Positions 3,802-42,139 of a stretch of 57,819 bases of DNA are shown here, one piece after another. The notes beneath the pieces were generated by a model, which was not told where the DNA came from, did not search any database, and worked only from the letters and a program-made list of their open reading frames with translations. The stretch is from Candidatus Parcubacteria bacterium (lineage in GTDB: Bacteria > Patescibacteriota > Patescibacteriia > Patescibacteriales > UBA12075): positions 1-57,819 of the forward strand of contig JAGLYP010000009.1 in NCBI GenBank assembly GCA_023132155.1, in the 5' to 3' direction. A program made the translations under genes and the position numbers. The first letter of the stretch is position 1; every line of letters begins with the position of its first letter.

Positions 3802-3832
3802 ATTTTAATTGATAAAAAAATAAAAAAATGTT

Positions 3833-4132
3833 TTACACCACCCCCTGAACCGCCTGAAAAACCCACTGGGTAATCGCGTATGATGAGAGGATTATTATCA
3901 TGCCGATGATTGAATTTTCAATGGTTTTTTTGGCGATTAAAACTTTTTCTTCTTTACCGCCGGATGTCATCCAAAGAAAACCGCCGTACATGATTAAAAT
4001 TAAAAATATCACTCCAAGGAGCGATAAAAAAACGCCGATTATCGCTCCGATTATTTCCGGCAAACTTTTTGGATCGCCAAAGCCCGCGGCTTTGGCGGTA
4101 ATTTCCAAATATTTTAAAATTTCTTCTTTCAT
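3833..4132 (-). CDS. T4SS_pilin/VirB2-TrbC-like two-TM small protein (paralog 1, no obvious signal peptide)
   Basis: LLGVIFLILIMYGGFLWMTSGGKEEKVLIAKKTIENSIIGMIIILSSYAI core aligns without gaps to nine others in the window. Confidence 0.8.
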   Translation of the reverse strand: MKEEILKYLEITAKAAGFGDPKSLPEIIGAIIGVFLSLLGVIFLILIMYGGFLWMTSGGKEEKVLIAKKTIENSIIGMIIILSSYAITQWVFQAVQGVV

Positions 4133-4154
4133 AGATGTTGATTAAATTTTGAAT

Positions 4155-6818
4155 TTACTTCCCTTTCACTTCATCCAACTTAACGGACAACAGCTTAGAA
4201 ACGCCGTCATCGCCCATAGTAACGCCGTAGAGGATGCTGGCGCGGCGCATTGAGGCGCGGTTGTGGGTTATGACTATGAACTGGGTTTTGCGGGATAATT
4301 CTTCAAAAATTTTCGCAAGGCGCTCGGAGTTTGCCTCATCAAGCGCGGCGTCAACTTCGTCCAAAACAACAAACGGAGACGGATTTGAACTGATAATCGC
4401 GCAGATCAAGGCAATGGCGGTTAAAGCGCGCTCACCGCCGGAAAGCATTGAGATTAATTTTATTTTTTTGCCCGGAGGCGTGGCTTGAATTTCAACTCCG
4501 GCTAAGCCGGTTGCGTTATGTTTTTGTAAAAATTTAATTTTTTTAATATCAGGCATGCTCACCAGTTCTGATTTTGCGTCTTCTTTTTGCGCTTCCGCTG
4601 TTTCTTCTTTTTCCTCATCCATAGCCTCCTCTAAAACTTTAACAATTTTGGCATTGCCGCCATTAAATAAAATTTTAAAATATTTTTCAAAATTTTGCGC
4701 TATTACTTTAAATTCCTTGTCAAATTGTTCTTTAATTATAATATCAAGCTCTTTAATTATTTTTTGCAAAGATTCAACCGCGGAACCGAAATCTATTACC
4801 TGATTATTTAAAAAATCAAAACGTTCTCTGGTTTCGTTATATTCATGTTCTGTTTGCGGATCAATCCCGCCGATAAGTTCCAGCTGCTTTTTAATTTGCC
4901 TGATTTTTTCACGCAAACCGCTAATAAGATCATTATCAAATTCGCCGGTTTCTCGCTTGCTATTTTTAATCTCGCTTAAATTTTTTAATTCTTGCCTAAT
5001 CTCTATTTCCAAATCCTCCAAACGGGTTTCATAACGAGTTGAATTGATTTTTATCGCCTGCATTTGGCTATTGCCGTTGTTTAACTCATTTTGCAATTCC
5101 TGCAAATTTCTTTGCAAAGAAAAAAGGCGGCCGCGCTTTTCCTCTTCCCTGGCGCTGATGCTGCTTATTTTTTCTTTAATAGCCAAAATCTTTTCTTGTG
5201 CTGCCGCAACCTGTTCAGTTAAAATAACTTGTTCTTTTTCAAACTCTTTAAAATCTTGTTTTTTTTCATTTTGCCGCAAGCGCTTTTCAATTTCTTGAAG
5301 TTCATTTATGAAACTCTGTTTTTTTTCATCTAACAGTTTTATTCTTTCAGCCTTTATTGACAGCCGGATATTATTTTCGTTTATTTTATTTACCATTTCT
5401 TCTTTTTCCCGCAATAATCCGCTTAAAGCGACTTGCGCTTCCTTTAATTTACTATTCCGGCTATCCGGCTTTTTGCCGTTAAAAATAATATTTTTGAGTT
5501 CTTTTAGCTCTTTTTTTATTTTCAACGCGAGCGTCTTGATTTTTTCAAATTCATTAATGCTTTCAGCCTTTTCCAAGTCTTCTAATATTTTATTTAATAT
5601 TTTATTGGCAACTCTCATTCCGTCGTCATCTGTTTTTTTATCTTCCTCTAGAAGCGCTTCATTTGTTTTTTTAATTTTAAAATCAATTTTTTCTTTTTCA
5701 CCTCTTAAATTTTGAATTTTCTCTTGTTCTTGCCTTGTGTTTAAGTTTGAGCTTCCGATTTCTTCGCCTATTTTTTCCAATTCCTTGCTAATCGCGTCCT
5801 TTTTATTAAACAAAAAAGACAAGTCATGCTGTCCGCTTGCTTCCAGCTTTATTTCCATTTGCGCCTCAATTCTGGCAAGTTTGCGGTTTAACTCGTCTTT
5901 TTTAGTTTGAATTCGGCCAAGCTCAGCCTGTAGCGCGTCAAATTCATTTTCCTTTTCACTTTCAATTTTTAATTCTTCTAAATTTCTATTTAAATTATCC
6001 AATTTTTTTTCTTTAGCAAACTTAATTTTTTCCAATTCCAAATATTCCAGATTATAATTATTAAACTTTTTACTGATATCATGCCAAATCTTGCCATAAT
6101 AATCTATTTGCATTTTTTTCAATTCCGTTTCCAATTCGCCGCGCTTACGCAGACGGCCGACTTGTCTGGTAAGGCTCTTAAGCCTTGGTTCAATTTCAGA
6201 TAAAAGCATCCGCGCCTGAGCCAAATTTTCATAGCTTGACCTAAGCTTGTTCAAAGATTCATCGCGCTTGATTTGATATTGCTTAACGCCGGTAGCTTCA
6301 TCAAAAAATTCCTTGCGCTCGGCCAAAGAAGTGTTTAAAAAACCCTCAACCATGCCTTGACCGATTACGCTATAAGTTTTTTGGCCGAATTTCGCTTTAG
6401 CAAGCAACATCTGAATATCCGACAAGCGAACACGATTATTATTAATCATGTATCCGCTGTCGCCATCGCGATATAAGCGGCGAGTAAGAACAATTTGCGA
6501 ATAATCTATCGTTGATTTACCGCTTTTAGCGCCGTCTTCATTGTTCAAATACAAAGAAACCTCGGCCATGCCGAGTTTGCCTTTCTTGTCAGATCCGGAA
6601 AAAATCACATCCTCTGACCTTTTTCCGCGCAAAGTCTTCATACTCTGCTCTCCCAGCGCCCAGCGCACCGCGTCAGCTACGTTTGACTTGCCGGAACCGT
6701 TCGGCCCGACCACGGCAGTAATTCCCCGCTTGTCTTTATCAAGCATGCCGGGAAACACAAGCGTATTTTTATTGGCAAAAGATTTAAAACCTTGAATTTC
6801 AAGTTTTTCTAGATACAT
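4155..6818 (-). CDS. smc: Chromosome segregation ATPase SMC (apparently hinge-less)
   Basis: Walker A GPNGSGKSNVADAVRWALGEQ, IGQGMVEGFLNTSLAERKEFFDEATGV, signature LSGGERALTAIALICAI and Walker B PFVVLDEVDAALDEAN. Start set to M20 of the listed ORF (MYLEKLEIQGFKSF). Confidence 0.9.
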   Translation of the reverse strand: MYLEKLEIQGFKSFANKNTLVFPGMLDKDKRGITAVVGPNGSGKSNVADAVRWALGEQSMKTLRGKRSEDVIFSGSDKKGKLGMAEVSLYLNNEDGAKSGKSTIDYSQIVLTRRLYRDGDSGYMINNNRVRLSDIQMLLAKAKFGQKTYSVIGQGMVEGFLNTSLAERKEFFDEATGVKQYQIKRDESLNKLRSSYENLAQARMLLSEIEPRLKSLTRQVGRLRKRGELETELKKMQIDYYGKIWHDISKKFNNYNLEYLELEKIKFAKEKKLDNLNRNLEELKIESEKENEFDALQAELGRIQTKKDELNRKLARIEAQMEIKLEASGQHDLSFLFNKKDAISKELEKIGEEIGSSNLNTRQEQEKIQNLRGEKEKIDFKIKKTNEALLEEDKKTDDDGMRVANKILNKILEDLEKAESINEFEKIKTLALKIKKELKELKNIIFNGKKPDSRNSKLKEAQVALSGLLREKEEMVNKINENNIRLSIKAERIKLLDEKKQSFINELQEIEKRLRQNEKKQDFKEFEKEQVILTEQVAAAQEKILAIKEKISSISAREEEKRGRLFSLQRNLQELQNELNNGNSQMQAIKINSTRYETRLEDLEIEIRQELKNLSEIKNSKRETGEFDNDLISGLREKIRQIKKQLELIGGIDPQTEHEYNETRERFDFLNNQVIDFGSAVESLQKIIKELDIIIKEQFDKEFKVIAQNFEKYFKILFNGGNAKIVKVLEEAMDEEKEETAEAQKEDAKSELVSMPDIKKIKFLQKHNATGLAGVEIQATPPGKKIKLISMLSGGERALTAIALICAIISSNPSPFVVLDEVDAALDEANSERLAKIFEELSRKTQFIVITHNRASMRRASILYGVTMGDDGVSKLLSVKLDEVKGK

Positions 6819-6911
6819 ATTTTTCACGTAACACACAACACGCATCACATAACATAAATTATTGATGCGTGCCACGTAAATATATTATACTACATTTTTG
6901 GAAAATTAAAA

Positions 6912-6939
6912 AGTCGGGAAAGATAATTCTTTCCCGACT
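6912..6939 (-). terminator. Intrinsic terminator for a minus-strand transcript upstream of smc
   Basis: AGTCGGGAAAGA / TCTTTCCCGACT 12 bp stem followed by T-run on the minus strand. Confidence 0.8.
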
Positions 6940-7130
6940 GAAACGCTGCTTGCGCCATTCTTGGATAAATTTGCCTCCGGTAAAAACAATTCTGTGGCTA
7001 TAAATAATACCTCCTTAGTTTGCCGTACTATTTGTCTATATTTACCGGTTTACGCAGCCAGCCATGGCGCTGGGTTTTTTAGATCACCTCCTTAGCACCC
7101 ATTAATTTAAAACAAAAAAAATATTTTTCG
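6940..7130 (-). ncRNA. Candidate structured transcript upstream of smc
   Basis: Nested complementarity on minus strand: CCAGC/GCTGG local hairpin, GCTGC..GCAGC outer pair, CCGGTAAA..TTTACCGG inner pair, ending in a terminator. Confidence 0.35.
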
Positions 7131-7147
7131 CGCTTAGCCACTTTCAT
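7079..7147 (-). CDS. Micro-ORF, 22 aa (MKVAKREKYFFCFKLMGAKEVI)
   Basis: Strong SD AAAAGGAGGG 7 nt upstream of ATG; not in supplied ORF list because short. Confidence 0.35.
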   Translation of the reverse strand: MKVAKREKYFFCFKLMGAKEVI

Positions 7148-7254
7148 AACATGCCCTCCTTTTCTGTTATAATCTTTGGAGTTAAGCAATATAATCGATA
7201 AAACATCTTTTATAAATACTTCAGTAGAAATATAATCCTATTTTTCTATCATTT

Positions 7255-7356
7255 TTACTTAAAAAATTTCCCTTTTCTGCATTTAATGGATTTTTTTCTT
7301 GTAAAAACCTTTCTTTTCCTAAAACCGCTCATCCTCTTCATTTTTTTAATATTCAT
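7255..7356 (-). CDS. Micro-ORF, 33 aa, very basic (MNIKKMKRMSGFRKRKVFTRKKSIKCRKGKFFK)
   Basis: Strong SD AAAGGGAGG just upstream of ATG; basic composition. Confidence 0.4.
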   Translation of the reverse strand: MNIKKMKRMSGFRKRKVFTRKKSIKCRKGKFFK

Positions 7357-7495
7357 AAGCCTCCCTTTCCTAAAAAATAGATAGAATAGAATTTAAAAAA
7401 ACAAAATTCACCTCCCTTTTAGCGGAAATATTATTTAAATAAACCTTAATTATATATAGCTTAGCAAAAAAATATTAAAAAATCAAATCAAAAAA

Positions 7496-8356
7496 TTATT
7501 TTACCAAACAAGCCGCGCCGATTGCGCCGGCGTGTTTGCCTATTTTTGATTTTAAAATTTTAATATTTTTTCTGGCTTCTGACGAACTGATATTTTCTCG
7601 CATGGTTTTTTTAGCAATTGATAAAAATAAATCACTGGAATTAACCGCGCCGCCGCCAAGCACAATTACTTCCGGAGCAATTAAATTTACAATGTTTGCC
7701 AAAGCTAATCCTAAAAATTTACCCAATTCTTCATAACTTTTTTCTGCCAATACATCCCCTCTATACGCTTCTTCCGCCAAGAGCGCGGGATTATCTTGCG
7801 TTAATTTATGATATGCTTCTTCTAATTTTATGCCTGTGTTAAAATCAATAATCATTTCTCCGGGTTCTCCGGACCCGCCAAAAGGCGCGCGATAAACATC
7901 GCCATTAAGCCACCACCCTCCGCCAACGCCGGTGCCGACAATAAAACCATAAACATTATCATACTTTTTTGCCACGCCAAGAGTCGCAACCGTCCGCGTA
8001 AAACAATTGCCATCATTATCAATTATTATCGGGAAGCCCGTTCTTTTTTCCAACTCTCGCGCTAAACACACCCCGTCTATTAAAGAAATATTTGGAGAAT
8101 ATAGCACTTTTCCTTCTTTATAATCAATCACTCCGGCAGCGCCTAAACCGATTCCTGAAATTTTTATTTTTAATTCTTTTGCTTTCTCTTCCAAAGGTTC
8201 AATTAAAGCCAGCATCATTACAAAAATATGCTCTAAATTATCTTTGGGCGTAGCTAAGGTATAATCCATTATCACTTCTTCGCCGTCAAAAAGCACGGCG
8301 CTCATTTTTGTCCCGCCTAAGTCAATGCCGATGGAGTAGGTTTTATTTTTTGTCAT
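7496..8356 (-). CDS. ROK family sugar kinase (glucokinase-like)
   Basis: IGIDLGGTKMSAVLFDG, GVGGGWWLNGDVYRAPFGGSGEPGEMI, EVIVLGGGAV. Confidence 0.85.
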   Translation of the reverse strand: MTKNKTYSIGIDLGGTKMSAVLFDGEEVIMDYTLATPKDNLEHIFVMMLALIEPLEEKAKELKIKISGIGLGAAGVIDYKEGKVLYSPNISLIDGVCLARELEKRTGFPIIIDNDGNCFTRTVATLGVAKKYDNVYGFIVGTGVGGGWWLNGDVYRAPFGGSGEPGEMIIDFNTGIKLEEAYHKLTQDNPALLAEEAYRGDVLAEKSYEELGKFLGLALANIVNLIAPEVIVLGGGAVNSSDLFLSIAKKTMRENISSSEARKNIKILKSKIGKHAGAIGAACLVK

Positions 8357-8399
8357 ATTACAAGTTATTTAATTACTTTGATTGGACCCCCTGTTTTTT

Positions 8400-8561
8400 G
8401 TCATCTCGACGAGCGATAGCGAGGAGAGATCTATAATACATAAATTATAGAAAAAAATTAAAATAAAAAATATATTGAAAATATTAAATTAATTAAAAAT
8501 CGTAGAAAAAATTTAAATATATTAAAGATCTCTCCACTCCGCTAACGCTCGTCGAGATGAC
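8400..8561. repeat. MITE-like element: ~33-36 bp terminal inverted repeats flanking ~93 bp AT-rich centre
   Basis: GTCATCTCGACGAGCGATAGCGAGGAGAGATCT at left and its imperfect reverse complement AGATCTCTCCACTCCGCTAACGCTCGTCGAGATGAC at right. Confidence 0.8.
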
Positions 8562-8586
8562 AAAAAAAGTGGTGAGTGGAAAACGG

Positions 8587-9585
8587 TCAAAATAACTTCC
8601 TCGCCTCTTCCCAAAACCGCCCGTCTCCATTCACTTGCCACTCCCAATGCCACCATTCAACTCCCCATAAATAAAATTCTTTAAAACCGGTTTTATGGGA
8701 AAAATCAATCATATCTTTAAACTTATCTAGACTCATTGTAATATCTCTTTCTGTTTTTGGCAATTCCTGAAACGGCAACGGTCCCCAAGGCTCGGCTTGT
8801 AATTCTATTACCACCCATTTTTCCGGATTGGAAAAAATACGCGTAATATTTTTCTTAAAACGAAAAAAACCCGGTTCAATCGGATAATGCACATAAGACC
8901 TTAAGAGTTTGGAATAAGTATCCCTATACATTGTGGTGCCGAAAATATCCGCGCGCCTGGCCGCCGGTATCCATGCGGACAATTCTCCGGAATCAGTGAT
9001 AATTATCGGCCTATCATCCAAATTTTTTACTAACGCTATCTCTTTATCCAATAAATCTTTATCCAGCTTAGGGCATTCGCCGAAATTAATCAAAAAAGGT
9101 TCGTTTTCCACCTGCCATGCAATGATATTTTTATTATCTTTATAACGATTTACGGTTAATTCAATATATTCCAATAATTGCTCTTTTTTTTCTTCTTGCG
9201 AAACATTTTCAATCCACCTGGGGAAATGGCACTCTGGCCAGCGCGGCAAACGTCCGCCAACCGCCAAAATTATCTCCGCTCCGGCCTCGCTTGCCTTTTT
9301 AACTTGCCAATCCAAATCCTCCCAGCTGTAATTATCTTTTTCTCCTTCAATTTCGTCCCAATATGCCGCTAATCTGATTTTTTTTACTTTTAAATCATTT
9401 AAAATAGCCAAATAAGTTTCTTGCCAGTCAAGTCCAAGGCTTTCCGCTTGCTTTAAAGAAAAAGTCACGCCATAACTTAAGTCCTCTTTATCATAAATAC
9501 AGCCGCGGCTTAATAAAAAAATTAAAAACAAAAAAATAATTAAAAAAACATAAAAATACCTTATTCTTTTTATTATTTTAAACAT
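8587..9585 (-). CDS. Membrane-anchored TIM-barrel glycoside hydrolase-like protein (clan A)
   Basis: N-terminal TM; IIAWQVENEPF (acid/base-type NEP) and WVVIELQAEPWG (nucleophile-type E). Confidence 0.7.
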   Translation of the reverse strand: MFKIIKRIRYFYVFLIIFLFLIFLLSRGCIYDKEDLSYGVTFSLKQAESLGLDWQETYLAILNDLKVKKIRLAAYWDEIEGEKDNYSWEDLDWQVKKASEAGAEIILAVGGRLPRWPECHFPRWIENVSQEEKKEQLLEYIELTVNRYKDNKNIIAWQVENEPFLINFGECPKLDKDLLDKEIALVKNLDDRPIIITDSGELSAWIPAARRADIFGTTMYRDTYSKLLRSYVHYPIEPGFFRFKKNITRIFSNPEKWVVIELQAEPWGPLPFQELPKTERDITMSLDKFKDMIDFSHKTGFKEFYLWGVEWWHWEWQVNGDGRFWEEARKLF

Positions 9586-9616
9586 TTTAAATTACGCCAA
9601 AAGCGCCAAAATTTTG

Positions 9617-10072
9617 TTAATTAAATAAATCTCCTTCAATTGAATCTTCTGTAAATTCAATCACAATCTCCGCTATCGCGTAGGCCGCGATAACAATTAT
9701 CATTCCGATTATGGCATTTTTTATTTGGCTTTTGGCTTTTGTTACTTCTTCTTCATTGCCACGCGAATTCATCCAGCGAAAACCGCCTAAAATTATCAAA
9801 ACCGTAAAGTACAAGCCCAAAAAACCTAAAAAAATCCTTACTCCGCTTACGACAATACCGCGCACATCCCTGGTTTCACCGCTTGGGCCTTCAAAAACCT
9901 CGCCTACACTCCCTGAATCATTACCCATACCGCTTTGTTTTTGCAGATCCCACAAGCTTGAATCCGCCGCCTTAACATTTTGCGTGTTAATAAACACCGT
10001 AAAAATCCAAAAAAAAGCTAATAATAATACGAAGTGCCCTTTGGGTGAAAATATATTTTTATTCATTTTCAT
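9617..10072 (-). CDS. T4SS_pilin/VirB2-like protein (paralog 2)
   Basis: FLGLYFTVLIILGGFRWMNSRGNEEEVTKAKSQIKNAIIGMIIVIAAYAI core. Confidence 0.8.
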   Translation of the reverse strand: MKMNKNIFSPKGHFVLLLAFFWIFTVFINTQNVKAADSSLWDLQKQSGMGNDSGSVGEVFEGPSGETRDVRGIVVSGVRIFLGFLGLYFTVLIILGGFRWMNSRGNEEEVTKAKSQIKNAIIGMIIVIAAYAIAEIVIEFTEDSIEGDLFN

Positions 10073-10139
10073 AGATATTATGCTATAATTATTTATAATT
10101 ACATTATAGCTAAATTTCTTAAATTATTCAAAAAAATTC

Positions 10140-11579
10140 ATGCGCCTATCCACAAAAATTGCTTATAATACTATTATTCAAATAATCAGCAAAGTTCTTT
10201 CAGTTATAGTTGGCCTGATTTCTGTAGCGATTATTACCCGGCACTTAGGGCAAAACGGCTTTGGGCAATATACGACTATCCTTACTTTTTTATCTTTTTT
10301 TGGAATTATCGCCGATTTTGGATTAACCTTGGTTACCATTCAAATAATCAGCAAACCGGGAGTTGACCAAAACAAAGCCCTGGGAAATTTACTGAGCCTG
10401 CGCTTGGTTTCCGCGCTTATTTTTCTAGGGGCGGCTCCTATAATTGTCTTGCTATTCCCCTATTCCGCTGAAGTTAAAAACGGAGTGGCAATAGCTTCTT
10501 TTTCCTTTCTTTTTATCGCTTTAAACCAAATATTAGTCGGCTTATTCCAGACAAAACTGCGCATGGATAAAGTTTCTATCGCGGAAATCGCAAGCCGCTT
10601 GGCTATGCTTCTTGGAATTATTATTGCCGTAAAATTTAATTATGGCCTGCAAGGCATTTTAATAGCTACTGTTTTTTCAAGTTTTGTCAGTTTTTTGCTT
10701 CATTTTATTTTCTCAAAAAAGTTTGCCGCAATAAGATTAAAATTTGATTTGCCATATTGGTCGGAAATCATGAAGAAATCATGGCCCTTAGCCATCACTA
10801 TTACGCTTAATCTTATCTACCTTAAATCAGATACTTTATTTCTTTCTGTAATTCCAAGAGATTCAGACATCGGCATAATCGCGGAAGTGGGAATATATGG
10901 CGCGGCTTACAAAGTAATTGATGTTTTAATTACGATTCCCTTCATGTTTGCCGGAATAATATTGCCGATAATGGCTAAAAGCTGGGTAGAAAAAAAGACG
11001 GATACTTTCGCGTCTGTTTTGCAAAAATCTTTTGACGTATTAGTAATGCTTGCCCTGCCAATGGCAGTTGGCACGCAATTTATTGCCAATGATGTAATGG
11101 CTATTGTTGCCGGAAATGATTTTTTAGCTTCCGGGCCGATTTTAAAAGTTTTGATTTTTGCCGCTGCCGCAATATTTTTAGGCAATATGTTCGCGCACGC
11201 GGTTATTGCCATAAATAAACAAAAGAAAGTTATCAAATCCTATATTTTTGTGGCTATCACCGCGGTAATCGGCTACCTCATGGTTATCCCGAACTTTTCT
11301 TACATGGGCGCCGCATGGGTTACGATTTATTCCGAATTCGCGATCGCAATCGCCTCTTTCCTGATTGTTTGGAGATATACCCGCTTCATTCCCAAATTTA
11401 CGGTTTTCATAAAATCATTAATTGCCTGTTTAATTATGGCGCTCGCGATATTTATTTTAAAAACTGAAACAAATAATTTAATCATTATTATTTTAAGCGC
11501 TGTTTTTGCTTATTTTACCTCATTATACTTTTTGAGAGCTTTAAGCAAACAAGATATATTGAATTTATTAAACAAATAA
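10140..11579 (+). CDS. Polysaccharide flippase (Wzx/MATE-like)
   Basis: Polytopic; ISKVLSVIVGLISVAIITRHLGQNGFGQYTTILTFLSFFGIIADFGL typical N-terminus. Confidence 0.85.
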   Translation: MRLSTKIAYNTIIQIISKVLSVIVGLISVAIITRHLGQNGFGQYTTILTFLSFFGIIADFGLTLVTIQIISKPGVDQNKALGNLLSLRLVSALIFLGAAPIIVLLFPYSAEVKNGVAIASFSFLFIALNQILVGLFQTKLRMDKVSIAEIASRLAMLLGIIIAVKFNYGLQGILIATVFSSFVSFLLHFIFSKKFAAIRLKFDLPYWSEIMKKSWPLAITITLNLIYLKSDTLFLSVIPRDSDIGIIAEVGIYGAAYKVIDVLITIPFMFAGIILPIMAKSWVEKKTDTFASVLQKSFDVLVMLALPMAVGTQFIANDVMAIVAGNDFLASGPILKVLIFAAAAIFLGNMFAHAVIAINKQKKVIKSYIFVAITAVIGYLMVIPNFSYMGAAWVTIYSEFAIAIASFLIVWRYTRFIPKFTVFIKSLIACLIMALAIFILKTETNNLIIIILSAVFAYFTSLYFLRALSKQDILNLLNK

Positions 11580-11655
11580 TTTAACAGATAAATTTCAATA
11601 TTATTATTCGCATGTCCCGCATTCGTAGTTGCGGGTTCGCGAAGCGAATAACATT

Positions 11656-12744
11656 ATGAAAGATAAAATACTTATTATTAAATCGTCAGCCGCGAATATT
11701 AATCCGCTATTTGCCTTATTTAGCGCGCTTGAGGAAAATAATTATGACTTATTATTTTTTAGCAATGATAAATCATTAATAAAATATTGCAAAGAAAAAA
11801 AATGGCATATTAAAAAAATAAAAAAAATATTCGCGTACGCTCTAACAAAACTTATATATTATAAATTTAAATTTAAATTAAAAAATATTATTTGTTTTGA
11901 TAATAAAGAAAAAATCCTTTTCACGCCTGTGGCCAAAATTTTAAGAATCAAAACCGTTTGGCTGGAATTGCCCGGAGGGAAAGAAAAATCTAATTTTGTT
12001 TTAAATTTCTTGCTTCAAAAAATATCCAAATGGCCAAAAACAATTGTTTTTAAAAAAGATGATAAAAATAGTTTAATAAAATCCGGATTAAGCTCAAAAA
12101 AAATCGCTTTTATCGCTCCGGGCATTAATCTAAAACAAAATAGCCGCCAAGAAAATATTTTTAATAATCTGGCTTATTGCAAAAAATTTCAATCGCAAAA
12201 AAAATTTTTTACTATCGGCACCGCGACAACCTTTAATTCCGCCCAAACAATAGAAATATTATTCGGCGCCGTCAAAAAAGCGCTTCATGTTATTCCAAAT
12301 TTGCAAATTATTATTATCGGGGACGGGGACGAAAGAAAAAAATTAACCTGGCTGGCCAAAAAAATGGAAATAGACGATTTAAGCTGGTTTGTCGGCGAGC
12401 AAGCCCATTTAAATAAATGGTTTGAGGGCTTTGATATTTTTTCAACCTCGCGCGTTAATGCTGATTTATCTGATATTTTTATCTTATTAAAAGCAATGAG
12501 CGCCGGACTGCCGATTATTAGCGCGGAAAACCGCGGATTTGATGATATTATTGAAAATGGCAGAAACGGATTATTACTGCCGAAAGACGATTCCGAACTT
12601 CTTGCCGGCGCGATTATAAAACTGCGGCAAGATAAAAAATTAAGTAAAAACTTGGGGCAAAACGCGAAAAATGATATACGGGATAGGATGAGTTTGGATT
12701 TGATGTTAGGGGATTTTCTGGGAATTTTGGGGGATGGGGGTTAA
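11656..12744 (+). CDS. Glycosyltransferase, group 1 family
   Basis: IIGDGDERKKLTWLAKKMEI, DIFSTSRVNADLSDIFILLKAMSAGLPIISAENRGFDDIIENGRNGLLL. Start set to M10 of ORF. Confidence 0.8.
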   Translation: MKDKILIIKSSAANINPLFALFSALEENNYDLLFFSNDKSLIKYCKEKKWHIKKIKKIFAYALTKLIYYKFKFKLKNIICFDNKEKILFTPVAKILRIKTVWLELPGGKEKSNFVLNFLLQKISKWPKTIVFKKDDKNSLIKSGLSSKKIAFIAPGINLKQNSRQENIFNNLAYCKKFQSQKKFFTIGTATTFNSAQTIEILFGAVKKALHVIPNLQIIIIGDGDERKKLTWLAKKMEIDDLSWFVGEQAHLNKWFEGFDIFSTSRVNADLSDIFILLKAMSAGLPIISAENRGFDDIIENGRNGLLLPKDDSELLAGAIIKLRQDKKLSKNLGQNAKNDIRDRMSLDLMLGDFLGILGDGG

Positions 12745-12781
12745 CATTTACAAAACACCCAATCCATGCTAATAATTATAC

Positions 12782-34053: not shown

Positions 34054-36528
34054 TTATTTCGCAAATAATTTATCAAAATCTTCTTCGTCCTTGTCCTCCG
34101 AAGCTTTAGCGTAGGAGGATTCATCATCTTCGTTCTCGCCATCAAAATCATTATCGCCTTTAAACGCCGGCGGATTTTCAGATTCTTCTCCTAAATAATT
34201 TTCTGGCTCTTCTGCCTCATTCTTATCATGAACCGGCACTCCGCTTACGCCTTGGTTATCAATTGCTTCTAGCTGTTGTTTGCTTATCAAAATCTCACGC
34301 GGCTTTGAACCGTTTGACGAACCGACAATTCCGGCTTCTTCCAGTTGATCAAGGATACTTGCCGCGCGCGCGTAGCCAACGCGCAATTTTCTTTGCAAAA
34401 GCGAGGCAGACGCTTTGTTCATATTAATTACTGTTTCTCTGGCTTCATACAAAAGCTCGTCTTCATCGCCGGAAATTCCGTTCAAACCGATACCGGCATT
34501 GCCTTGAACTTTCTGCCTTTCCGTAATTCTGCCGACATAATCCGGCTTGCCGCCTTTAGATTTAACATAACGGACAATTTTTTTAATCTCCTCGTCAGAC
34601 AAAAACGCTCCCTGTATGCGCACCGGCTTAGAAAGTTCGGCATTTATAAAAAGCATATCGCCGCGGCCTAATAATTTTTCCGCTCCCAAGCCGTCCAAAA
34701 TTGTTCTAGAATCCGTGCTGGAAGCGACTGAAAAGGCGATTCTCGCCGGCATATTGGCTTTAATCAAACCGGTAATAACATCAACGCTCGGCCTTTGGGT
34801 CGCTAAAACCAAATGAATGCCAACGGCTCGCGCCATCTGCGCCAAACGAATAATACCTGCTTCAATATCTTTGGCGGCCGCCACCATTAAATCAGCCAAT
34901 TCGTCAATCACAAACACCAAATAAGGCATTTTTATTTCCATAGACTCGTTATATGTTTGAATATTCCGCTTGCCGGATTTAGATAATATATCAAAGCGCC
35001 GATCCATTTCATTTAAGCACCACTTCAGGGCGTTAATGGTTTTTGGCACCTCGGTAATAACCGGAGTCATTAAATAAGGCATGCCGTTATAACCGACTAA
35101 TTCAACCCTTTTCGGATCAACCATGATAAATCTTAAATTATCAGGCGTGTTTTGATACATCAAGCTGACTATAATCGTATTCAAGCAAACCGATTTACCG
35201 GAATTTGTCGCTCCGGCAACCAGCAAATGCGGCATTTTTGTAATATCATTCAGCCAGACATTTCCAGATACATCTTTGCCAAGCGCGAGCTGCATATTAT
35301 TTTTTCTATTCTTATAACTCTTGCTAAGCATAACCTCTTTAAAACCCACCACCGCTTTAGCTTGATTAGGCACTTCAACGCCCACCAATGACTTTCCCGG
35401 AATAGGCGCTTCAATGCGAATCGGATGGACAGCCAAGGCCAAAGCCAAATCATTGCTTAAATTGGTTATACGGGATAATTTTACGCCTTCAGCAGGCCTA
35501 AAAGTATATTGGGTAACAGTCGGACCAACGCTAACGCCGCCCATTTCCACCGGAATGCCAAAATTTTCCAAAGATTTTTTTATAATATCCTTATTATTCT
35601 CAATATCTCCGCTGGTCGGTTTGTCTTTCTTGCCGTTTAACAAACTTAAAGGAATGCTTAAGTTTGATTGAGCAGGCTTCATCCACCAAATATTTTCAAG
35701 CTCTTTTTCATTAGTATTTACTTGTGCTGAAATCTCTTCTTCTTCATCATTATCCTTGCCCGCCGAAGCTTCAGCGAAGGAGGGTTCTTCATCTTCTTCA
35801 TCACTTTCTTCGTCTTCATCTTTTTCTTCATCCTCATCATCCTCTCCTCTTTCATCTTCATCATCTTCGCTGTCTTCTTCCCCTTCTTCATCTTCTTCTT
35901 CGTCTTCATCCTCTTCCTCTTCTTTTGCTTTTAAGCCGAAAATCTTGGCAATAACAAAATTAATCGGGTAAATTATTTTCGCAAAGTAACTGTCGCGCCC
36001 GAACATAGCAAGCAAAGAAGTATTAAATATCAAAAGCAAAGAAACAATCAACAAAACCAAACTAAGCAAAAGCGAGGCAATATAGCCGGTTAAGTTTAAA
36101 AATATATCCGCGAAAAACAGACCCAAATAACCTCCGCCTCGGCCAATCGCGATTGATTCTTCCCATAAATCTCTTTCTATCAGCAAAAAAAATAAAACAT
36201 GAATAGCAATAAAAAAAAGCATTACGCCCAAATAAGTTCCTCCCCTAAGTTCAAAGCGCTCCTCGTCATAAAGCGCGTAGCCCCAAACCAAAAGAACAAC
36301 CGGCAAAATAAATTTACCCCAGCCAAAAGCCAAAATCAAGCCTTGTTTTAAATATATACCTAAAAATCCGGCCAAATCAAAAAGCCCTAAAAGAGCAATT
36401 GCCCCTAAAAACATTATAAAAACAATAAAAATGCCTTTTTTTGTATCAGAATCCAAATCCAAACTCGGCAAGCTTGGCACCCTTAAAAAGCTTAACATGC
36501 CTTTTCTTTTTTTTCGTCTTCTGACCAT
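34054..36528 (-). CDS. ftsK: DNA translocase FtsK
   Basis: N-terminal TMs; PHLLVAGATNSGKSVCLNTIIVSLMYQ; VFVIDELADLMVAAAKDIE; RLAQMARAVGIHLVLATQRPSVDVITG; C-terminal gamma-like wHTH LLQRKLRVGYARAASILDQLEEAGIVG. Confidence 0.95.
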   Translation of the reverse strand: MVRRRKKRKGMLSFLRVPSLPSLDLDSDTKKGIFIVFIMFLGAIALLGLFDLAGFLGIYLKQGLILAFGWGKFILPVVLLVWGYALYDEERFELRGGTYLGVMLFFIAIHVLFFLLIERDLWEESIAIGRGGGYLGLFFADIFLNLTGYIASLLLSLVLLIVSLLLIFNTSLLAMFGRDSYFAKIIYPINFVIAKIFGLKAKEEEEDEDEEEDEEGEEDSEDDEDERGEDDEDEEKDEDEESDEEDEEPSFAEASAGKDNDEEEEISAQVNTNEKELENIWWMKPAQSNLSIPLSLLNGKKDKPTSGDIENNKDIIKKSLENFGIPVEMGGVSVGPTVTQYTFRPAEGVKLSRITNLSNDLALALAVHPIRIEAPIPGKSLVGVEVPNQAKAVVGFKEVMLSKSYKNRKNNMQLALGKDVSGNVWLNDITKMPHLLVAGATNSGKSVCLNTIIVSLMYQNTPDNLRFIMVDPKRVELVGYNGMPYLMTPVITEVPKTINALKWCLNEMDRRFDILSKSGKRNIQTYNESMEIKMPYLVFVIDELADLMVAAAKDIEAGIIRLAQMARAVGIHLVLATQRPSVDVITGLIKANMPARIAFSVASSTDSRTILDGLGAEKLLGRGDMLFINAELSKPVRIQGAFLSDEEIKKIVRYVKSKGGKPDYVGRITERQKVQGNAGIGLNGISGDEDELLYEARETVINMNKASASLLQRKLRVGYARAASILDQLEEAGIVGSSNGSKPREILISKQQLEAIDNQGVSGVPVHDKNEAEEPENYLGEESENPPAFKGDNDFDGENEDDESSYAKASEDKDEEDFDKLFAK
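34094..34119. repeat. Palindromic element in frame in ftsK (encodes SSYAKASED)
   Basis: TCCTCCGAAGCTTTAGCGTAGGAGGA; related to 35754-35786. Confidence 0.75.
35754..35786. repeat. Palindromic element in frame in ftsK acidic linker (encodes EPSFAEASAGKD)
   Basis: CCTTGCCCGCCGAAGCTTCAGCGAAGGAGGGTTC; shares CGAAGCTT.AGCG.AGGAGG with 34094 copy. Confidence 0.75.
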
Positions 36529-36682: not shown

Positions 36683-37102
36683 TTACCCTACGTTCCCGCC
36701 AAAAGGCAAGGCGTTGAATATAAAATAAGTAATAGCGTACGCGGCAATTATTATAAACAAGCCGATAATCGCTGTCCGAATAGTTTCCTTGGCTTTTGTC
36801 ACTTTTTGTTCATCGCCTTCGGATGTCATCCAATTAAAACCGGCCAGAATTATTAGAATTATAAAAATTATGCCTAAAATGCTTAAAAAAGTTTTTATGA
36901 TGATAGCCATAAATTTACCCAATTCCGAGCCTGATTCATCAGATTGAAAACCGGCGCTTTCACTGAATTTTCCAAGCATGCTATCTTTTCCGACAACCGC
37001 ATCAGAATCAGTAAACGGGCCAGCCAATACGGGAATAGCAAATAAAAATAAAAGCGCAATCAACAAAAAACCATTTATAAATTTTATTTTTTTATTAACC
37101 AT
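36683..37102 (-). CDS. T4SS_pilin/VirB2-like protein (paralog 3)
   Basis: ILGIIFIILIILAGFNWMTSEGDEQKVTKAKETIRTAIIGLFIIIAAYAI; signal peptide-like N-terminus. Confidence 0.85.
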   Translation of the reverse strand: MVNKKIKFINGFLLIALLFLFAIPVLAGPFTDSDAVVGKDSMLGKFSESAGFQSDESGSELGKFMAIIIKTFLSILGIIFIILIILAGFNWMTSEGDEQKVTKAKETIRTAIIGLFIIIAAYAITYFIFNALPFGGNVG

Positions 37103-37491
37103 TATATTAATATTCTTACTAAAATAAATTGCGTTATCGCGTAAGAGCCGACGGTAATTAGCAAGCCGATTATCGCGCGCCGTATCGTATCCTGCGCCCG
37201 CTCCACCTTGCTCCGGTCTCCGGCGGCTGTCATCCAGACGTAACCGCCATATAACATTAAAGTTACAAAAATAATTCCCAAAACTGAAAAAAAGATTTGC
37301 ACGACTTTACCGGCATTGGCGGCCAAATTATTTTCGTCAGCACCGTTATCTATTTTGGCATAGCCGCTTCCGGCTTCTTGCACATCTTGTAATCCTTTTA
37401 ACGGCGAGGTTTGCGCGAACACAAAGTAAGGCAATATCAATATCACTATCAAACAAAGCAAAATAAATAAATGTTTAATTTTGTTTTTCAT
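37102..37491 (-). CDS. T4SS_pilin/VirB2-like protein (paralog 4)
   Basis: VLGIIFVTLMLYGGYVWMTAAGDRSKVERAQDTIRRAIIGLLITVGSYAI. Confidence 0.85.
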   Translation of the reverse strand: MKNKIKHLFILLCLIVILILPYFVFAQTSPLKGLQDVQEAGSGYAKIDNGADENNLAANAGKVVQIFFSVLGIIFVTLMLYGGYVWMTAAGDRSKVERAQDTIRRAIIGLLITVGSYAITQFILVRILI

Positions 37492-37535
37492 GTTTTTCTA
37501 TATTTTAATTTTATTTTTAAACTAAGCTTGCTAAA

Positions 37536-37973
37536 TTACGGATCTGGCGCTTTTGTTGCGGGAGCATTATCCAAAACCCCTGTAGTAACTTTTTCAATAA
37601 CAAAATAAGAAATCGCGTAAGCTGAAACAACTATAATCACCCCGATAATCGCGGCTGTAATTAAGTTTTTTGCCTTTGTTACCCGTGCTTCATCACCAGA
37701 GGCTGTCATCCAGATATAACCGCCATAAAGCATTAAAATTAAAAATACGACCCCCAAAGTTGATAAAATAATATTTATTACTTTGGCTACCATGCTTTCG
37801 GCTGTTACTGTGCCGTCTATTTTATATCCACCTGCACCTGCGACTGTACCGGCATTTCCGGTATTTCCAAAAGCATCTTTTAATCCTTGCGCTTCAACAA
37901 CTGCCGCCAAAGAAAAAACAATAAAAATTGAAAAAACTAAAATTATAATAAATTTTCTTTTTTGTTTTTGCAT
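37536..37973 (-). CDS. T4SS_pilin/VirB2-like protein (paralog 5)
   Basis: TLGVVFLILMLYGGYIWMTASGDEARVTKAKNLITAAIIGVIIVVSAYAI. Confidence 0.85.
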   Translation of the reverse strand: MQKQKRKFIIILVFSIFIVFSLAAVVEAQGLKDAFGNTGNAGTVAGAGGYKIDGTVTAESMVAKVINIILSTLGVVFLILMLYGGYIWMTASGDEARVTKAKNLITAAIIGVIIVVSAYAISYFVIEKVTTGVLDNAPATKAPDP

Positions 37974-38043
37974 AAATTATATGTACCTTATTTGTCATTC
38001 CCGCCTCAGAGTTTGCGGGAATAACAGGTAAAATATTGCGCCT

Positions 38044-38454
38044 TTACTCTTTTACAACCCAAACAGCCAAATTATCCCCGATAAAGGCGGTTATCGCGTA
38101 AGCCGCGATGACAATTAATAAGCCGATAATTGAATTTCTGATAATATTTTTAGCTTTTTCAACCTCTTGCTCATTCCCGCGCGAATTCATCCAGATAAAA
38201 CCGCCGTAAATCATTAAAATTAAAAAAACCACGCCAATTAAAGACAAAACTACTGATATAACTAAACTAACGCCTTTAAGCGCGCCTGCTTTAGTAATTT
38301 TGGAATCAAGATGTCCGGTTTTTTCAGCTGTTTCTTTTAAACTTGAATTAAATAAACTTTTAGCACTTTTATCAGCCGCTTCAACGACAACCGGCGCGAT
38401 AAATGCAATATTTAAAAAAATAATTGTTAATAAAGATATTAAAACTTTTTTCAT
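38044..38454 (-). CDS. T4SS_pilin/VirB2-like protein (paralog 6)
   Basis: LIGVVFLILMIYGGFIWMNSRGNEQEVEKAKNIIRNSIIGLLIVIAAYAI. Confidence 0.85.
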   Translation of the reverse strand: MKKVLISLLTIIFLNIAFIAPVVVEAADKSAKSLFNSSLKETAEKTGHLDSKITKAGALKGVSLVISVVLSLIGVVFLILMIYGGFIWMNSRGNEQEVEKAKNIIRNSIIGLLIVIAAYAITAFIGDNLAVWVVKE

Positions 38455-38456
38455 AA

Positions 38457-38876
38457 TTATTTTGGTATTTCCATTAACTTATCGCCAATATACGCGGTAA
38501 TCGCGTAAGCCGCCAAAACAATCACTAAGCCGATTATCGCGGATTGGATTAAATCTTTCGCCTTGGTTACTTCCTGCTCATTGCCGCGCGCCAGCATCCA
38601 AATAAAACCGCCGTAAATCATTAAAATTAAAAAGGCTACGCCAACCAAAGACAAAATAACGCCAATCACCTTTCCAATCGCGCCGGGAAGACTATTCATA
38701 ACTCCGCTGTCATCAGCGTTAACATCACTTACGCCATAACCTTTATTTGCGGCCGTGTTTAAGCCGGTTAAAGCATCGGTGGCGCCATCAGCCGAAACAA
38801 AAGGCGTAAAAATAAAAAAAGCCAAAAAAACGGCTGTTAAAAAAATTATTTTATTTTTAGTTTTTAATTTTCGCAT
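38457..38876 (-). CDS. T4SS_pilin/VirB2-like protein (paralog 7)
   Basis: LVGVAFLILMIYGGFIWMLARGNEQEVTKAKDLIQSAIIGLVIVLAAYAI; start set at MRKLKTKNK. Confidence 0.85.
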   Translation of the reverse strand: MRKLKTKNKIIFLTAVFLAFFIFTPFVSADGATDALTGLNTAANKGYGVSDVNADDSGVMNSLPGAIGKVIGVILSLVGVAFLILMIYGGFIWMLARGNEQEVTKAKDLIQSAIIGLVIVLAAYAITAYIGDKLMEIPK

Positions 38877-38957
38877 AAAACGATAAATATTAAAATCTAA
38901 AAACAGATAACAAACCAAAGGAGCAAAGATGTTATCTGCTTAATTTACCAACCTTAT

Positions 38958-39347
38958 TTACAAATCACCATCAAGGGCATCATTGGTCATTTCAATTACA
39001 AAATTAACAATTGCATAAGACGCGATAACAATAACCAAACCAATCACCCCCGCAATAATAATATTTTTTGCTTTAGTAACACGATCTTCATTTCCGGCAG
39101 CCGTCATCCAGACAAAACCGCCATAAAGAATAATCGCAACCGCGATAATACCTAAAAATGTAATTAAATACTTGATAATCGTAACCGCCATATCGCGCAC
39201 ATCATCATCTTCCGCTTCCGGTAAATCAAGATTTTCCGCGTATGTCATGCCCAAATCCAAAGCGCCGACTTGAACAGGCGCCAAAAAATTAAAAACAAGA
39301 ATCGCTAAAAACAAAAGGGTAAATATTTTTTTTACGGTATTTAACAT
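38958..39347 (-). CDS. T4SS_pilin/VirB2-like protein (paralog 8)
   Basis: FLGIIAVAIILYGGFVWMTAAGNEDRVTKAKNIIIAGVIGLVIVIASYAI. Confidence 0.85.
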   Translation of the reverse strand: MLNTVKKIFTLLFLAILVFNFLAPVQVGALDLGMTYAENLDLPEAEDDDVRDMAVTIIKYLITFLGIIAVAIILYGGFVWMTAAGNEDRVTKAKNIIIAGVIGLVIVIASYAIVNFVIEMTNDALDGDL

Positions 39348-39470
39348 AAAATTATCTTAAGCTCCTTAATATACATAATTTATAAAATTAATAATCGTCC
39401 ACCCTTATAAAAACAATTTTTATTTTTATAAGGGCGGATCCCTAGAATTCTAGAGGGACCCGCTATATTT

Positions 39471-39869
39471 TTAAACAATATCACCACTCAAAGCATCATT
39501 GGTAATGCCAATTACAAAGTTTACGATTGCGTAAGCCGCCAATACAACAACCAAGCCGATTGCTCCGGCAATAATAATTTTCTTTGCCTTGTCAACTTTA
39601 TCTTCATTACCCGAAGCTGTCATCCATATAAAACCGCCATATAATATTACGCAAACCGCTATAATGCCTAAAAATGTCATTAAATACTTAACAATATCAA
39701 CCGCCATTTGTCTTGGGTCTGTTTCGGTAGCCGTTACTAAACCTGTATTTGCGGCATAGCCAGTACCAATATCAGGACCCTGAGTCATTCCGGGAGTTAC
39801 CGTTATAATAGAAAATAAAAACACAAAAACAGCAATAACCACGATGTTTTTAAATAATTTAATTTTCAT
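39471..39869 (-). CDS. T4SS_pilin/VirB2-like protein (paralog 9)
   Basis: FLGIIAVCVILYGGFIWMTASGNEDKVDKAKKIIIAGAIGLVVVLAAYAI; ends near-identical to next copy. Confidence 0.85.
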   Translation of the reverse strand: MKIKLFKNIVVIAVFVFLFSIITVTPGMTQGPDIGTGYAANTGLVTATETDPRQMAVDIVKYLMTFLGIIAVCVILYGGFIWMTASGNEDKVDKAKKIIIAGAIGLVVVLAAYAIVNFVIGITNDALSGDIV

Positions 39870-39965
39870 ATTATTTATTAAATTAATAATCGTCCACCCT
39901 TATAAAAACAATTTTTATTTTTATAAGGGTGGATCCCTAGAATTCTAGAGGGACCCACTATATTT

Positions 39966-40364
39966 TTAAACAATATCACCACTCAAAGCATCATTGGTAA
40001 TGCCAATTACAAAGTTTACGATTGCGTAAGCGCATAAAATAATAATCAAACCGATAACACCGGCAATTATTAATTTTTTCGCTTCAGCGACTTTATCCTC
40101 ATTTCCGGCGGCAGTCATCCATTTAAAACCACCCAACAAAATTACAACAACCGCTATAATGCCTAAAAATGTCATTAAATATTTAACAATATCAACCGCC
40201 ATTTGTCTTGGGTCTGTTTCGGTAGCCGTTACTAAACCTGTATTTGCGGCATAGCCAGTACCAATATCAGGACCCTGAGTCATTCCGGGAGTTACCGTTA
40301 TAATAGAAAATAAAAACACAAAAACAGCAATAACCGCGATGTTTTTAAATAATTTATTTTTCAT
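39966..40364 (-). CDS. T4SS_pilin/VirB2-like protein (paralog 10)
   Basis: FLGIIAVVVILLGGFKWMTAAGNEDKVAEAKKLIIAGVIGLIIILCAYAI; SD-like GAAAGGGGGTGAATTATG. Confidence 0.85.
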   Translation of the reverse strand: MKNKLFKNIAVIAVFVFLFSIITVTPGMTQGPDIGTGYAANTGLVTATETDPRQMAVDIVKYLMTFLGIIAVVVILLGGFKWMTAAGNEDKVAEAKKLIIAGVIGLIIILCAYAIVNFVIGITNDALSGDIV

Positions 40365-40513: not shown

Positions 40514-42139
40514 ATGCGAAAATTTAATTTTAATTTAATAATTACGGTTTTATTTTATATTTTAATTTTTTCGTTATTTTTAACAAACTCTTTTAACTAT
40601 CTTGATCCTGACCTTGGCTGGCATTTGAAAGCCGGAGAAGAAATATATTTGGAAAAACATGTTCCATGGAATGAAAACTATAATTATACGCTAGAAGGGA
40701 AGACATGGGTTGACCATGAATGGCTGCTTAATTTAGCCGGCTTTCTTGTTTTCACCAAAATTAACTATACCGCGCTTAATATAATTTTCGCGTTAATCGG
40801 ATTGCTGATAATTTTTTTACTTAATAATCTATTGTTAAAAAAATATTTTCAAGATAAGCTGCACTTTATATTTATATTAATAATTGAAATAATCGGTCTG
40901 GCGGGAATCCTCCCGCATTTTGGCGTACGGATGCAAGAACTTTCGGTTTTAATGCTTTTGCCGTTATTATTTATAATTGATAAATTTCATACAACAAAAG
41001 ATAATAAATTTCTTTGTTTGGTACCACTGTTATTCTTTGTCTGGGCTAATTTACACGGCGGTTTTATGCTGGGTCTTGTTATCCTTTGGTTTTATCTGTG
41101 CGTAAATCTGTTTATTCCAAAAGTCATAAAACATTTTAAAATTAACTTTTTTGATTTTAAAATTTTTGAAAGAAAAAAATATTTTTATATTTTTTTATCA
41201 GCAACTATCTCATCTCTGGCTGTTCTTATCACTCCATACCATTACAAATATTTCAGCTTTATGCTTGAGTATAAAAACACGTACTATATGAAGCACATCG
41301 CGGAATGGCTCCCTGTCTGGAATCCCCCGCTTTATTACCCGCAACAAGCTTTTTTTGTTATTTTTATACTAATTATTGTTTTATTGTTTTTTGAAAACAA
41401 AAATACAAAGTGCACCCCAAGGGCATTTCCTGCGGGTCACCCTTGGGGTAAAAAGATTAATCTTTGGCACTTTTTCATAAGCATCTTGCTTTTGGCGGCC
41501 GCGTTCAAATCCAGACGAAATTTCCCGATTTTTTTTATTGCCTCGCTCCCTTTTATTACTGCCGCGACAAGTTCAATAAATAAAAATAATTTTAAAAAAA
41601 TATATTTTTATTTATTTAAAAACAGATATATTTATTTTTCTCTGATAACAAGCTTGAGCATTTCAATCTTTTTAACTTTGGTTTTAACAAACTTTACTAA
41701 CTCGCCTTTTAAAAATAAAAAATTCTGCCAATCGTATCCATGCGGCGCTTTGGAAAAAATAAAAACATTAGCGCAAGAAAATCTAAAAATATTTAATAAT
41801 TACGGTTATGGCGGGTATTTAATTTGGAATTGGCCGGATCACAAAATATTCATTGACGGCAGGCTGCCGATGCTTCAAATCAATAACCATTCTTTACTGG
41901 AAGAATATTATGAATTTTCTAATAAAGAAAAAATATCCGATAAGTTAAATGAATATAATATTAATTTGGTGCTGGATAAAAAACATAAAACAACCAAATT
42001 CAATTGGTTTGAAAAAACTTTTTTAGGCTTTAAAAATAAAGACAAGGAATTAAATCCGCTTGAAGAATATTTAAGCGGCGAAGACGACTGGGAGCTGATT
42101 TTTGAAGACGATAATTCTTTTGTTTACTATAAAAAATAA
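40514..42139 (+). CDS. Polytopic membrane protein, GT-C/PMT-like glycosyltransferase candidate
   Basis: Many TMs; N-terminal LDPDLGWHLKAGEEIYLEKHVPWNENYNYTLEGKTWVDHEW; likely start MRKFNFN within listed ORF. Confidence 0.6.
   Translation: MRKFNFNLIITVLFYILIFSLFLTNSFNYLDPDLGWHLKAGEEIYLEKHVPWNENYNYTLEGKTWVDHEWLLNLAGFLVFTKINYTALNIIFALIGLLIIFLLNNLLLKKYFQDKLHFIFILIIEIIGLAGILPHFGVRMQELSVLMLLPLLFIIDKFHTTKDNKFLCLVPLLFFVWANLHGGFMLGLVILWFYLCVNLFIPKVIKHFKINFFDFKIFERKKYFYIFLSATISSLAVLITPYHYKYFSFMLEYKNTYYMKHIAEWLPVWNPPLYYPQQAFFVIFILIIVLLFFENKNTKCTPRAFPAGHPWGKKINLWHFFISILLLAAAFKSRRNFPIFFIASLPFITAATSSINKNNFKKIYFYLFKNRYIYFSLITSLSISIFLTLVLTNFTNSPFKNKKFCQSYPCGALEKIKTLAQENLKIFNNYGYGGYLIWNWPDHKIFIDGRLPMLQINNHSLLEEYYEFSNKEKISDKLNEYNINLVLDKKHKTTKFNWFEKTFLGFKNKDKELNPLEEYLSGEDDWELIFEDDNSFVYYKK
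41414..41449. repeat. Palindromic element in frame in membrane protein gene (peptide CTPRAFPAGHPWG)
   Basis: ACCCCAAGGG...CCCTTGGGGT perfect 10 bp arms. Confidence 0.75.

Follow-up and report, generated by a model that had tools for sequence, protein, structure and literature searches.

An ancient, ordered array of T4SS_pilin genes in a Candidatus Parcubacteria genome as a probable subunit set for a type IV secretion system pilus

Why would a bacterium with a 1.23-Mb genome maintain eight different pilin genes in a row, on a contig without visible machinery to assemble their products? This question is raised by contig JAGLYP010000009.1 of Candidatus Parcubacteria bacterium (assembly GCA_023132155.1), which we analyzed over its whole length of 57,819 nucleotides (the window). 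Eight open reading frames (ORFs) of the T4SS_pilin family, here named P8 to P1 in the direction of transcription, lie head to tail on the minus strand at 36683–40364, upstream of ftsK (34054–36528), and two further copies, S1 (3833–4132) and S2 (9617–10072), are isolated (Table 1). The window is one contig (C42) of a 42-contig genome with an estimated completeness of 98.8%; the nearest named relatives are the Candidatus Parcubacteria ROV157 bins and Candidatus Falkowbacteria, and the source is an ultra-small, Falkowbacteria-like, and probably host-dependent Patescibacterium. We regard it as probable that the array encodes the subunits, one major and about five minor, from which a type IV secretion system (T4SS) assembles a VirB2-type pilus, and that giant proteins encoded elsewhere are displayed on this pilus.

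Family membership, slot order and selection

The initial annotation of the window had described eight tandem and two isolated ORFs with a gap-free common core, and their coordinates, strand, and core were borne out by an ORF check and by alignment. The ten proteins align without gaps through approximately 60 amino acids (aa), with the signature GGFxWM...G[NDK]E..V..AK..I...IIG..I...YAI, and residues G77, G88, W91, M92, G96, V101, A104, I108, I113, G114, and YAI 122–124 (numbering of the protein encoded at 36683) are invariant. The likeness to VirB2/TrbC (T4SS_pilin-type) proteins proposed at the same time was upheld by profile searches, in which all ten exceeded the curated cut-off of Pfam T4SS_pilin (PF18895; 29.1–41.1 bits against 26.6, E-values of 1e−6 to 2e−10), while none reached that of TrbC/VirB2 (PF04956), for which some had sub-threshold matches (best, 22.4 bits against 27.9). 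P1 also passed the cut-off of 40 bits for NF045849, the pilin-like conjugal protein of mycoplasma integrative and conjugative elements (ICEs), with the other nine scoring 28.5–38.8 bits, and all nine P1-slot proteins tested matched this model at E ≤1e−3. The likeness among the ten proteins is not due to chance, because their PF18895 matches lie above the cut-off and their sister-species orthologues show ratios of nonsynonymous to synonymous divergence (dN/dS) of 0.07–0.35. Sequence comparison supports their assignment, as putative pilins, to the VirB2/TrbC-type T4SS family. A match to an unrelated family of small membrane proteins, such as a holin or a transporter subunit, had been named as the finding that would speak against this assignment; the Pfam search gave only sub-threshold matches of that kind (DctQ, FixQ, and others), but PF18895 was the sole family above its cut-off for any of the ten, so that this identity is refuted at the family level and retains almost no probability.

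The predicted layout of the proteins is that of VirB2: a signal peptide, a first transmembrane helix, a short charged loop that would be cytoplasmic, and a second transmembrane helix. The earlier statement that most of the proteins carry a signal peptide stands for nine of the ten, judged from a hydrophobic N-terminus, and fails for S1. In the AlphaFold model of P8, a signal helix is followed by a disordered linker and then by a helical hairpin predicted with confidence (residues 52–83 and 89–126; predicted local distance difference test of about 90 in the core), and the model of P1 has a similar layout. The P5 ORF was called from a TTG codon, and the ATG at codon 15 (38876) is the likelier start.

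The genes of the array occupy fixed positions. When slot profiles built from three related genomes were used to score the arrays of 17 other genomes, the gene order along the direction of transcription was X (one to four copies)–P5–P4–P3–P2–P1 in all 17, with P6, P7, and P8 of the window belonging to class X. No inversions occurred in the contiguous arrays of these test genomes, compared with a mean of 147 and a minimum of 96 in 20,000 shuffles; some middle-slot assignments in this count have margins of only 0–5 bits, and two distant extra pilin genes (in G003 and G047) were left out of it. In a phylogenetic tree, the P1 slot formed one clade across 20 genomes (support 100/94), and class X formed another together with the giant proteins described below (100/97); P2–P5 were resolved in part, so that the ends of the array are the best resolved. 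Outside the taxonomic order, arrays are present and their slots are no longer resolved, although at the class level most arrays still have a longer spacer (about 50–270 nt) behind an X gene. A recent expansion of the whole array was rejected, since the end slots are order-wide clades and only the X copies are lineage-specific or homogenized. The array is therefore an ancient, strictly ordered parts list, not a shuffled repertoire.

P1–P8 have one-to-one orthologues in the sister species, in the same order and beside ftsK. With the dN/dS values given above and synonymous divergence (dS) of about 0.5–1.1, each slot is under purifying selection, and every copy is retained as a distinct part. Copy number varies in the X class alone, where the trend is toward homogenization: the first ~210 bp of P7 and P8 are nearly identical (two to three differences), as are their last 66 bp, whereas the middle is strongly diverged (core dS 0.81), and the two cores are closer to their own orthologues (89 and 88%) than to each other (82%). 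We read this pattern as gene conversion that made the exported N-terminus and the tail alike and left the helix-loop-helix untouched, which is the opposite of antigenic diversification. The diversified repertoire suggested in the initial annotation thus found no support, the slots being fixed, ordered, one-to-one between species, and under purifying selection. For the VirB2 paralogues of Bartonella and Anaplasma, a variable repertoire that serves antigenic variation or a switch of host range has been proposed, and one was suggested for Patescibacteria as well (PMC12102498). It would suit the divergence of the paralogues and the extracellular N-terminal parts, whose rate of change exceeds that of the core in several slots (P3, P7, and P8). 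However, one-to-one slot orthology and fixed order hold throughout the taxonomic order, dN/dS is well below 1, also for the N-terminal parts, and P7 and P8 have surface parts that are homogenized rather than diversified; we consider such a repertoire improbable here.

The secretion system and giant proteins on other contigs

A search of the window for VirB4, PrgI, and TraG-type proteins found no match, in agreement with the earlier report that it lacks VirB4, VirB6, and VirD4; the description of the array as being without a secretion system holds for the window only. Elsewhere in the genome, PrgI (PrgI/VirB3) is encoded at C35:1560–2030, adjoined by a 228-aa TrsD/VirB4-N protein and by the start of a VirB4 gene running off the contig end, and the remainder of VirB4 starts at the end of contig C14. 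The gene is undivided in the sister species G001 (L118, 644 aa; 347 bits with NF045971, whose cut-off is 325), from which we infer that the break in VirB4 is an artefact of the assembly. VirD4-like (VirD4/TraG-type) ATPases are encoded on C12 and C16, so that the components of a VirB4-class T4SS (PrgI, TrsD-like, VirB4, and VirD4-like) occur in the same cell as the array, and each of 12 relatives examined has exactly one PrgI. The genome contains 17 PF18895 domains, ten in the window and the rest on C5, C6, C10, and C39, and the family was found in all 59 relatives searched (3–20 domains each). Short proteins of the type MPNIxPLEKIENKIxLIRGxKVMLDxDLAxLY, which read like an ORF6N domain, are inserted in the T4SS operon (L099, 8300–8800; L118, 14044–15611), and the operon of G001 has three tandem copies (L118, 14044–15611).

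On C39 (L023), two adjacent minus-strand genes (3018–9878 and 9990–12749) encode giant proteins of 2286 and 919 aa, each consisting of a signal peptide, an X-type pilin hairpin, and ectodomains with matches to Big_5, TIG, and fn3; beyond the N-terminal module, neither has a strongly hydrophobic segment. For 20 genomes of the order, the corresponding region was fetched, and the pair is present in 19 of them (G006 yielded just the larger gene, close to a contig end, and the two proteins of G003 are shorter, at 581 and 927 aa). All 11 genomes sampled from the remainder of the class have the pair as well. An apparent 14,266-aa giant in G143 was an artefact of a masked run of N. The giant pilin module always scores as X, and wherever the genome also has an X pilin, the module is closer to X than to the minor pilins of that genome. 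Concerted evolution with the X pilins of the same genome was unsupported, most giants being closer to giants of other genera than to their own X; the module is an ancient offshoot of X, without homogenization with X. Because both protein ends lie outside in the VirB2 topology, the ectodomains would face outward, and the giants may be incorporated into a structure made of X, where they would act in display or adhesion. Contig C5 (L024; 9112–9933 and 9939–10805) encodes a further pair of PF18895 fusions (273 and 288 aa), whose hairpins are of a separate, divergent type, and a similar pair occurs in G004 (L111).

Such fusions are also one of the grounds for an alternative in which pilin-like modules serve a T4SS-independent purpose, as a generic anchor for giant surface proteins or as part of a type IV pilus/competence envelope: the module is joined to large ectodomains, both in the giants and in the C5 proteins, and the array and the giant genes are unlinked to virB4. 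Against this, a PrgI-containing T4SS is present in every genome checked for both, and all members match the T4SS pilin family. We think this use very improbable.

Spacers, the candidate major pilin and the proposed pilus

The X genes are set apart from their otherwise nearly fused neighbors. The median spacer after an X gene is 108 nt, compared with 6 nt at the other joints, the lengths being lower bounds because the first possible codons were taken as starts. In 18 of 20 genomes, a spacer after an X gene folds at z <−3, and the P8/P7 and P7/P6 spacers of the window carry near-identical 19-bp hairpins without a U tract. Hairpins protect upstream operon segments in E. coli (PMC5927463), and X mRNA may be in excess in the array. 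As a specific signal, however, the hairpin was weakened by a control: it is not special in itself, because 46% of 158 unrelated same-strand spacers (40–250 nt) also reach z <−3. In the array, counts of canonical terminators or promoters were not clearly above those of shuffles, and a search against Rfam gave no match. The argument is carried by the asymmetry of the spacers, and the X class, being set apart by them, is therefore probably the major pilin.

The pilus would belong to the single chromosomal T4SS of this Patescibacterium. Pre-pilins would be exported by Sec and lose their signal peptide, and the mature pilin would span the membrane as a helical hairpin, its two ends on the outer face and its charged loop on the inner one. 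The T4SS core encoded elsewhere (PrgI/VirB3, TrsD, VirB4, and the VirB6-like protein) would then extract subunits into a filament. P6–P8 of class X would provide the major subunit, produced in excess from a separable transcript segment, and the minor subunits, about five, would come from the single-copy genes P5–P1, each with its own fixed role. The 919- and 2286-aa giants would enter the same structure through their N-terminal pilin module, carry their Ig/fn3-type ectodomains outward, and act as host-cell adhesins at its tip or base. A bolder form of this proposal, which we put forward only tentatively, is a hetero-polymeric T4SS pilus with a fixed recipe, made of one mass-produced X major pilin and five conserved, ordered minor pilins, with two giant adhesins (about 600–930 and 1700–3300 aa) polymerizing into it through their X-type module. 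Such a pilus would be a monoderm conjugation-type pilus turned into a host-attachment organelle in a class of Patescibacteria.

In addition to the folding of the control spacers, several results weigh against the pilus. A structural search with Foldseek found no match at E ≤0.001, and the only pilus among the top 50 was 8dfu, an archaeal conjugation pilus (E 2.6); this search cannot decide a pilin fold, because a two-helix hairpin is too simple. The sequence search of the PDB likewise gave no match. The 842-aa hydrophobic protein beside PrgI has no profile match and is VirB6-like by position and hydrophobic appearance only. Furthermore, no T4SS neighborhood (14–20 kb, nine genomes of the order) contained a pilin of the array type, so that the array and the virB4/prgI motor genes are unlinked within the order. 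The initial annotation had left the choice between surface pilin and membrane pore; of the two, we favor a pilin. A hetero-oligomeric membrane pore or T4SS scaffold, such as a VirB2-like channel lining without an extracellular filament, would be in keeping with the small hairpin proteins, with the fact that most monoderm T4SSs are without pili (PMC12102498), and with the giants, which show the module to be capable of membrane anchoring; yet the separable, duplicated, and homogenized X class better fits the bulk subunit of a filament than a ring of fixed stoichiometry, and we consider the pore unlikely.

Known systems and neighboring features

T4SS pilin arrays in Patescibacteria are already known, and the array itself adds one more example. 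A PF18895-based survey detected VirB2-like pilins in 1,948 assemblies of Patescibacteria that have VirB4, counted 441 arrays of 2–11 genes with a mean identity of about 25%, and suggested host adaptation (PMC12102498, 2025). With eight PF18895 genes in tandem, where that survey takes two or more to make an array, the present locus resembles these in family, divergence, and the monoderm-type (FATA) T4SS genes of its genome; however, the survey reports variability and arrays often near virB4, from which the array is unlinked here. In Southlakia epibionticum, the pilin genes are essential and lie inside the T4SS cluster, unlike those of the window (PMC10633639, 2023), and its six divergent VirB2-like pilins (strain ML1; PMC12857230, a review) equal the number of slot types here (X and P5–P1). 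The mycoplasma ICE protein (NF045849, Mbov_0395/MMCAP2_0565) is linked to the present system by P1 and by a T4SS ATPase resembling the ICE ATPase family, although the model was built on ICE proteins rather than on a chromosomal array and the nine other proteins fall below its cut-off. Anaplasma and Bartonella share tandem VirB2 paralogues and host dependence, but they are diderms whose clusters were proposed to serve variation, whereas the slots here are conserved and ordered. The order-wide slot order, the division into X and minor pilins, and the giant X-module proteins were not found in the papers searched and appear to be new here. In the single Patescibacterium in which this has been tested, the T4SS pilin array is essential. 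The fixed order, the major-like class, and the giants built on that class replace “many divergent pilins” with a testable parts list (major, minor, and display), which points to host attachment and argues against antigenic variation.

Table 1. T4SS_pilin genes and hairpin-bearing spacers of the window
Feature	Position	Strand	Length (aa)	Score	Remark
P8	39966..40364	minus	132	PF18895 41.1 bits	first X-class gene; candidate major pilin
P8/P7 spacer	39870..39965	minus		dG −31.7, z −5.7	19-bp RNA hairpin without U tract
P7	39471..39869	minus	132	PF18895 38.4 bits	second X-class gene
P7/P6 spacer	39348..39470	minus		dG −34.9, z −4.4	near-copy of P8/P7 hairpin; within repeat D4
P6	38958..39347	minus	129	PF18895 33.8 bits	third X-class gene
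P5	38457..38918	minus		PF18895 36.6 bits	minor slot P5
P4	38044..38454	minus	136	PF18895 36.0 bits	minor slot P4
P3	37536..37973	minus	145	PF18895 34.1 bits	minor slot P3
P2	37102..37491	minus	129	PF18895 29.1 bits	minor slot P2
P1	36683..37102	minus	139	PF18895 39.5 bits; NF045849 44.2 bits	minor slot; last in array
S1	3833..4132	minus	99	PF18895 37.8 bits	isolated; without signal peptide
S2	9617..10072	minus	151	PF18895 37.3 bits	isolated

Among 69 ftsK loci fetched, the array lay beside ftsK only in two congeners; a functional linkage to ftsK was rejected, the adjacency being confined to the genus. The FtsK of the window has a long Asp/Glu-rich insert and SFAEASAGK/SYAKASEDK motifs, possibly translated dispersed repeats. 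At L081 and L097, ftsK of the patescibacterial type lies on contigs filed under Planctomycetota and Bacteroides metagenome-assembled genomes, which are possibly mis-binned. The window also encodes a 949-aa exported protein (952–3801) with a ComEA-like HHH, three lamin-tail domains, a PKD domain, and an OB-like domain, possibly for DNA handling at the surface. Finally, a palindromic repeat at 41402–41455, with the in-frame reading TPRAFPAGHPWG, lies inside a 583-aa ORF and is similar to the palindromic elements of Rickettsia type, which insert into coding genes. A scan of 194 kb of own-genome sequence yielded one copy, and a variant stands in frame in the N-terminus of the P5 orthologue of G001 (L030, 6587–7105).

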